Origin: Alphaproteobacteria bacterium
Lineage (GTDB): Bacteria; Pseudomonadota; Alphaproteobacteria; WRAU01; Hepatincolaceae
Reading direction: 5' to 3'
DNA: 64,000 bases
NCBI GenBank assembly: GCA_009780035.1
Contig: WRAU01000004.1
Location: forward strand, 62,001-126,000
The translations under genes and the position numbers were made by a program. A model generated the notes under the pieces. It was not told where the DNA came from and searched no databases. It was given only the letters and a program-made list of their open reading frames with translations. This document shows positions 54,681-55,878 of this stretch, in pieces. Positions within the stretch are counted from its first letter, which is position 1, and every line of letters begins with the position of its first letter.

Positions 54681-54875
54681 ATGCGCTGCCCTATTTGTAA
54701 AAAACCTTCCGCCGCTGATAAAAAAATTCTGCCTTTTTGTTCCGCCAGATGTCGTGATGTAGATTTATATAAATGGTTTAGTGGCAGCTATAGTATTCCA
54801 GTAGTGGAGTATGATGATATTGATGAAGAAGAGCTTGAAAAATTAAATGGGGTTATAGAGGAAAAAGATGATTAG
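54681..54875 (+). CDS. yacG: DNA gyrase inhibitor YacG (zinc-binding)
   Basis: 64 residues with the Zn site CPIC at 3-6 and CSARC at 20-24, then [10 protein letters not shown]. Binds GyrB in Escherichia coli. One base after rng. Its C-terminus is acidic. Confidence 0.9.
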
Positions 54876-55234
54876 TTTTTAGAGTTATTTTTTTGTTTCA
54901 AGTGTTGTTCTATTATGCTTAAAGCCTGCTGCTCTGTTTCGCTGAATTTTCTATTAAATAGTTTGCCTATATAATACAGTTTATCAAATCTATCAAACTG
55001 CTGTCCCATTTTTGCAATAGTTTTCTTTTGGTTTTCTATTTTCATATCATACTTATCAACCATATAATAAAATGTAAGCTGGGTTGAAATATCTAGGGTA
55101 TCTATAAATTCTTGAATTTCCAGCAGTAAATTATCATATTGGCTGGTTAGTCCCATAGAATTAAACAAAAGATTTTTGAATTCTTCTTTAATATCGTAAT
55201 CGTCTAATTCTGGTTTTTGTTTTGAATCTGCCAT
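54872..55234 (-). CDS. Hypothetical helical protein
   Basis: 120 residues, charged and mostly helical with coiled-coil tendency around 68-85 ([17 protein letters not shown]). No signal peptide. Not recognised. Its stop overlaps the yacG stop from the other strand (4 bases). Downstream of the candidate RNA gene on the same strand. The ribosome site is weak. Confidence 0.55.
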
Positions 55235-55265
55235 AGAGAGTGCCTTTTTCTAATATAATTATTTC

Positions 55266-55428
55266 AGGGCGGGAGATTAGAACCTCTACACACGGAGAGC
55301 GAGATTATTTCCCTTGCGGGTATTTTATTCTCTGCTCTCCCGCCCATACATAATATATGAGAAAAAACATATATTAACATACTTAGGCTAATATATGTGT
55401 GTGTAGCAACATGGGGTTCTACGCCCAC
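55266..55428 (-). ncRNA. Candidate structured RNA of about 163 nt (6S-like layout?)
   Basis: The ends pair: GGGCG (55422-55426) with CGCCC (55267-55271), TAGAACC with GGTTCTA, and CTACACAC with GTGTGTAG. Inside are two hairpins: GGAGAGC/GCTCTCC containing CCC-GCAA-GGG, a GNRA tetraloop, and CATATATTA/TAATATATG. A promoter sits exactly ahead of it. Rod with closing stem and internal loops recalls 6S RNA, but I see no motif that proves this. It lacks SRP RNA and tmRNA hallmarks. Coding frames through it have no ribosome site. Confidence 0.55.
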
Positions 55429-55434
55429 GCTTAA

Positions 55435-55463
55435 ATTATTCAACAATTACAAATTATTGTCAA
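55435..55463 (-). promoter_or_regulatory. Promoter of the candidate RNA
   Basis: Minus strand: -35 TTGACA (55458-55463), 17-bp spacer, -10 AATAAT (55435-55440). Predicted start at about 55428, one or two bases before the closing stem. Confidence 0.65.
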
Positions 55464-55616: not shown

Positions 55617-55630
55617 CATATTTCTATATA

Positions 55631-55762
55631 CCCATTCAGCAAAACCAACAGATACTATTTTTCGTTTAACATGCTCGCTAAACATCCTATTAAATACTAC
55701 ATTTTTAATTATGGTGAGCAAGATGCACTCAAAATAGTATCTGTTGGTTTTGCTGAATGGGC
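55631..55762. repeat. Exact 31-bp inverted repeat downstream of tRNA-Phe
   Basis: Arms 55631-55661 and 55732-55762 are exact reverse complements around a 70-base spacer. The arms give the same short peptide in opposite frames, which explains the open frames seen here. Same architecture as 5661-5786 but different arm sequence. Confidence 0.88.
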
Positions 55763-55806
55763 AATATCTTCATTTAAGAGAGTTTTTTAATTTAATATTT
55801 TTAAAA

Positions 55807-55841
55807 GAAGATGGCATATAATATTATTATATGCCATCTTC
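55807..55841. terminator. Perfect 17-bp hairpin before the lyase gene end
   Basis: Arms 55807-55823 and 55825-55841 with one central base. It follows the minus-strand lyase gene and probably terminates the PTS-lyase transcript. Confidence 0.75.
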
Positions 55842-55878
55842 CCATTTTCCACTCACCACTAATGATTGCGATAAATAT

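Follow-up and report, generated by a model that had tools for sequence, protein, structure and literature searches.

The minus strand of the window (the whole 64,000-nt stretch of DNA analyzed) carries a consensus-like promoter followed by a structured RNA, and the locus raises the question of which family this RNA belongs to and what it controls. The promoter, TTGACA-17-AATAAT (55463-55435), was the best site in the region, matching 11 of 12 consensus bases, and it recurs before most copies of the element (12 of 13 in the genome, A5 with one change in TTGACA); its perfect spacing had been described in an earlier note on this DNA. The note's proposal of a structured RNA also held, since folding of the 198-nt minus-strand segment 55463-55266 gave -66.8 kcal/mol (z = -5.9) and no shuffled sequence did as well. 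In this fold, the ends are joined by three helices, i.e., a1/a' (UAGAACC with GGUUCUA), b1/b' (CUACACAC with GUGUGUAG), and GGGCG with CGCCC, and the CCC-GCAA-GGG hairpin is present as described. No coding frame fits the RNA itself, as had been stated, but a conserved 120-aa ORF on the same minus strand (54872-55234), beginning 26 nt 3' of the RNA, had been missed.

The RNA had been put forward as new, with a layout suggestive of 6S RNA and otherwise as a lineage-specific RNA. An Rfam scan showed instead that its 3' half (55260-55344) is a full-length match to RF02221, sRNA-Xcc1 (model positions 1-87 of 87; 60.5 bits against an Rfam cut-off of 53 bits), and, judged by its sequence, the window RNA is a member of the sRNA-Xcc1 family, neither 6S RNA nor an RNA of an unknown family. 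To the extent that its model can show, the 6S RNA candidate was rejected, as the scan gave no such match here and the RF00013 model found nothing genome-wide, a model that matched five of 14 controls. Many genomes carry an annotated sRNA-Xcc1, which is known mainly as a virulence-linked small RNA. Thirteen copies occur in the present genome (1.42 Mb, 17 contigs), all at E values of about 1e-4 or better. Two of them exceeded the RF02221 cut-off end to end and the others scored 35-51 bits; a newly built covariance model, whose building set included the copies from this genome that it then scored, confirmed all 13 and gave those below the Rfam cut-off 63-82 bits. Among 299 genomes sampled from the phylum, in a survey whose stricter filters drop some weak family matches, the family was found in 51, none with as many as 13 copies. 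Considering that this RNA family is widespread across Pseudomonadota and their phages, the RNA itself is not lineage-specific; what was found in this genome only, in searches of related genomes, plasmids, and viral contigs, is a 12-copy version joined to a family of orphan ORFs. At the DNA level, phage records gave no meaningful match to the element.

The repeat unit, ~500 bp long, runs from the promoter through to the stop codon and is dispersed in the genome, its copies sitting between housekeeping genes with flanks that are unrelated among units (neighbors include putative secD/secF, tgt/queA, and murA-maf-purB, as named from their sequences). Being a dispersed repeat, the unit might be thought a DNA-level repeat or palindrome with no RNA function, an explanation of the pairings that the earlier note had raised against its own proposal. 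Covariation argues otherwise. In an alignment of 33 diverse cores, which includes the 13 copies from this genome, the four helices (P1, P2 in two parts, and P3) were paired in 93% of cells and 18 of the 19 core pairs showed changes on both sides, with no comparable result in 500 shuffles; the covariation score was 0.58, compared with 0.20 for shuffles, and did not exceed 0.15 once the partners were slid. In the window, the core occupies 55260-55345. The P1 5' strand (55336-55345) pairs with the 3' strand at 55267-55276 through nine pairs that have changed on both sides plus one G-C, the P2 tip CCC-GCAA-GGG (55311-55320) is surrounded by a conserved AATAAAATA/AAATAAT internal loop, and the P3 hairpin lies at 55284-55299. 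These compensatory changes contradict a purely DNA-level origin, as do the locus-private complementarity and the selected ORFs described below, and we regard it as extremely improbable.

The three end helices are real, but the end-to-end pairing competes with a second fold, the three-helix P1/P2/P3 core, and it is the latter that covaries. The leader-paired fold is predicted to be clearly more stable than separate folds in nearly all copies (for copy A1, -62.8 vs. -47.6 kcal/mol for leader and core folded apart), and the predicted energies fit two exclusive states, in which the core either stands alone or is tied to the leader. Both this predicted stability and the position of the RNA, almost always immediately upstream of an ORF, would suit a cis-acting attenuator, i.e., a 200-nt 5' UTR that toggles between the end-paired and three-helix folds and yields no free small RNA. 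However, for sRNA-Xcc1 of Xanthomonas, Northern blot and end mapping defined an RNA of 88 nt (PMC2996969), and relatives retain a separate target copy at the start site that would be superfluous for a pure attenuator, making this explanation unlikely.

Approximately 100 relatives share one order of parts: promoter, leader with a1 and b1, terminator-like hairpin, three-helix RNA with a' and b', and a target copy located at the Shine-Dalgarno of the next gene, which in prophages is mostly an antirepressor. The a' strand precedes the 3' arm of P1 and b' lies in the P3 loop, and each has one complement in the leader (a1 and b1, respectively) and another where the next gene begins (a2 and b2). In the window, a' (GGTTCTA, 55278-55284) is the strand between P3 and the P1 3' strand, with its complement a1 (TAGAACC) at 55415-55421; b' (GTGTGTAG, 55286-55293) has its complement b1 (CTACACAC) at 55399-55406. 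The terminator-like hairpin, ACATATATTA/TAATATATGT with a run of six T behind it, occupies 55362-55398, and a2 (ATTAGAA, 55248-55254), the complement of TTCTAAT in a', overlaps the Shine-Dalgarno AAAAAGG (55243-55249). A stem with a T-run was present in all 13 leaders of this genome vs. 10 of 13 shuffles, and a stem of at least 7 in 12 vs. 7; these AT-rich stems are thus modestly above shuffles, and T-rich leaders yield many false matches.

Complementarity was scored as the longest run exactly complementary to the b'-a' segment, with swapped partners and shuffles as controls; comparing duplex energies over whole segments, again with partners swapped, proved too coarse, since the copies share the anti-Shine-Dalgarno part, and this exact-match test took its place. 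A complement of at least 7 nt was found between the 13 leaders of this genome and their own RNA in 92% of cases vs. 9% with swapped partners and 18% with shuffles, and among 90 relatives in 87% vs. 24% for the leader and 83% vs. 20% downstream (control regions, 11% vs. 10%), figures that kinship among copies inflates somewhat and for which the partner swap is the sturdier control. The a'/b' pairing is private to each locus. Over the 13 copies of this genome, combined P values against shuffles that preserve base composition only were 1e-9 for a1, 1e-6 for b1, 0.003 for a2, and 0.004 for b2, and the window copy's own a2 gave P = 0.066. Before the ATG, a match of at least 7 nt occurs in only about half of the copies in this genome, and copy A1 has an a2 and no clear match for b2. 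Since the downstream pairing is weaker here than in phages, the claim for the window copy is less strong than that for the family.

The position of the RNA relative to coding sequence is one-sided among the 90 relatives, of which 76 have an ORF with a Shine-Dalgarno at most 130 nt downstream (median 40) and three have one on the opposite side. By Pfam and PHROGs, these next genes are mostly P22_AR, Bro-N, KilA-N, Rha, AntA, and ORF6N, that is, mostly predicted antirepressors and related regulators. An antirepressor is annotated behind the RNA in phage Rac-SA53 and in Vibrio phages, a plasmid copy of the RNA stands before a BRO protein gene, and copy A6 of this genome stands before a phage-type Bro-N antirepressor. 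The gene run around A6 (L278:1-10143) is prophage-like, with the Bro-N antirepressor, a PNKP-type phosphatase, and a ParB_N protein; structural-looking genes around it matched no Pfam or PHROG family. The remaining 12 copies precede one paralogous orphan ORF family, in which the ORFs of A5 and A9 are broken and that of A3 is truncated, and all ten family members that retain an N-terminal part directly follow an RNA copy. At A9 (L027:3881-4015), the ORF is internally deleted and what is left is homologous only to the C-terminal part of the window ORF, and a remnant of the family (40 aa matched) lies at L277 ~930-1050 (G000:C1:181529-181648) with no recognized RNA.

The orphan family is under purifying selection (pairwise dN 0.22-0.53, dS 0.8-3.3), and its member in the window, a 120-aa protein and the presumed target, is predicted to form a long two-helix hairpin (pLDDT 86). 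No relatives of the protein were found in plasmids, viral contigs, or 57 related genomes, and fold searches returned generic helical hairpins only, with E values above 0.5. To our knowledge, discussion of sRNA-Xcc1 has treated it as a trans-acting virulence RNA, with no settled target. Target predictions published for sRNA-Xcc1 (PMC2996969) and for its Xylella relatives (PMC12189769) would accord with a trans-acting small RNA that regulates distant host mRNAs, the downstream ORF being incidental. This is very unlikely, however, considering that the ten orphan ORFs with an N-terminal part are all behind the RNA, with the 40-aa remnant as the sole other match, and that the variable a' and b' follow the local leader rather than a common target.

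Phages shut off the start signal of an adjoining downstream gene with RNA of the C4 type. The locus resembles that of phage P1/P7 C4 (RF01695; c4-2, RF02944) in having a1 and b1, a terminator hairpin, a three-helix RNA, and candidate a2/b2 sites at the next start, as well as in the placement of b' within P3 and a' beside P1, in a core 5' end that begins GG, and in complementarity that is likewise locus-private. As a positive control, C4 loci that the Rfam C4 model detected in other genomes gave, for own vs. swapped partners, 89% vs. 16% upstream and 89% vs. 15% downstream. However, the RNA matches neither C4 model, P2 being different and containing the conserved internal loop. Neither RF01695, which matches 20 of 150 other genomes, nor RF02944, whose null result had no positive control, matched anywhere in the whole genome, and the link to C4 is therefore one of anatomy and not of sequence family. 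The three helices are shared with sRNA-Xcc1, as is the conserved AAUACAA...ACC/GG.AAUAA internal loop, although the Rfam model comprises the 87-nt core only, leaving the leader targets, terminator-like hairpin, and start-site target outside, and the next gene is an orphan ORF here, whereas a 2025 study found sRNA-Xcc1 upstream of symE in Xanthomonas integrons (PMC12444791). The best explanation is that the window RNA works like C4 and belongs to sRNA-Xcc1. C4 RNA is released by RNase P, with b' lying over the ribosome-binding site and a' conferring specificity (PMC5320573); c4 and c4-a1b1 are both in the motif list of Weinberg 2010 (PMC2864571). Most phage copies have an RCC-like tail after P1 that is missing in the copies of this genome, so processing may differ.

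Two further systems show related arrangements. Group 1 sRNAs of Acinetobacter baumannii are likewise many chromosomal C4-type copies within one genome, cut from longer transcripts (PMC5320573), but they are of the C4 family and not the Xcc1 family. Compared by layout, the IsrK-STnc1160-orf45-anrP region of Gifsy-1 in Salmonella has a promoter, a short terminated RNA, read-through, a processed downstream RNA complementary to IsrK, and ORFs (PMC4825925); there, in contrast, IsrK activates the downstream operon (PMC12197685). In Xylella, sRNA-Xcc1, isrK, and C4 are given as separate entries close together (PMC12189769); in strain De Donno, all three fall within 400 bp on one strand (1,323,982-1,324,381; PMC12189769, table 4), a clustering that suggests isrK to be the leader-terminator half of a C4-type locus.

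We consider it likely that the locus is a C4-like antisense unit silencing translation of the downstream ORF (54872-55234), a reading that draws together computed observations, i.e., the RNA family, its conserved structure, the private a1/b1 complementarity, its position before the ORF, and the excess complementarity at the start site. Transcription would begin at the constitutive-looking promoter and yield a leader carrying a1 and b1, being partly halted at the terminator-like hairpin. The 85-nt three-helix RNA may be released from a precursor made by read-through, and its a' strand and b' loop would pair at the Shine-Dalgarno region of the ORF and block translation. Either by itself or as part of one transcript with the core, the a1/b1 leader may act as a sponge that competes for a' and b', so that the block could be lifted.

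More tentatively, and with somewhat less than an even chance, a phage C4/Xcc1-type antirepressor switch may have been domesticated here and multiplied into 12 mutually insulated chromosomal units, each using its own RNA to silence one orphan protein, with a putative role in addiction or phage sensing, and the entire sRNA-Xcc1 family, including its virulence-linked founder, may be a C4-type cis/trans antisense system. As a special case of the C4-like reading, the 12 units could be toxin-antitoxin-like, with the RNA as antitoxin and the orphan helical protein as toxin. Units of ~500 bp between housekeeping genes with unrelated flanks, and the occurrence of sRNA-Xcc1 upstream of a toxin gene, symE (PMC12444791), are consistent with this, but the orphan protein has no recognizable toxin relative by sequence or fold, and we regard it as possible but rather doubtful.

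In the open-access literature searched, we found no report linking sRNA-Xcc1 to C4 or antirepressors; with the search confined to that literature, priority for a C4-type reading of sRNA-Xcc1 is uncertain. The C4-like anatomy points the search for sRNA-Xcc1 targets to the gene directly behind the RNA and to exact pairing sites, giving the family a role that can be tested, and it places Xcc1 and C4, probably together with IsrK, in a single mechanistic class. The chromosomal expansion, with 13 diverged RNA-target pairs in one small genome, also provides a natural set for studies of antisense specificity.

Two other repeats lie nearby in the window. Directly behind tRNA-Phe, a long, near-perfect inverted repeat (55626-55767) consists of CATTCAGCAAAACCAACAGATACTATTTT and its complement around a ~60-nt spacer, and its arm has no other occurrence in the genome; Rfam microRNA matches beside the tRNA were below cut-off and were rejected, the site being a long DNA hairpin. 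Between purB and the tRNA side, a second palindrome, AGATGGCATATAATA/TATTATATGCCATCT (55803-55850), is probably a terminator.
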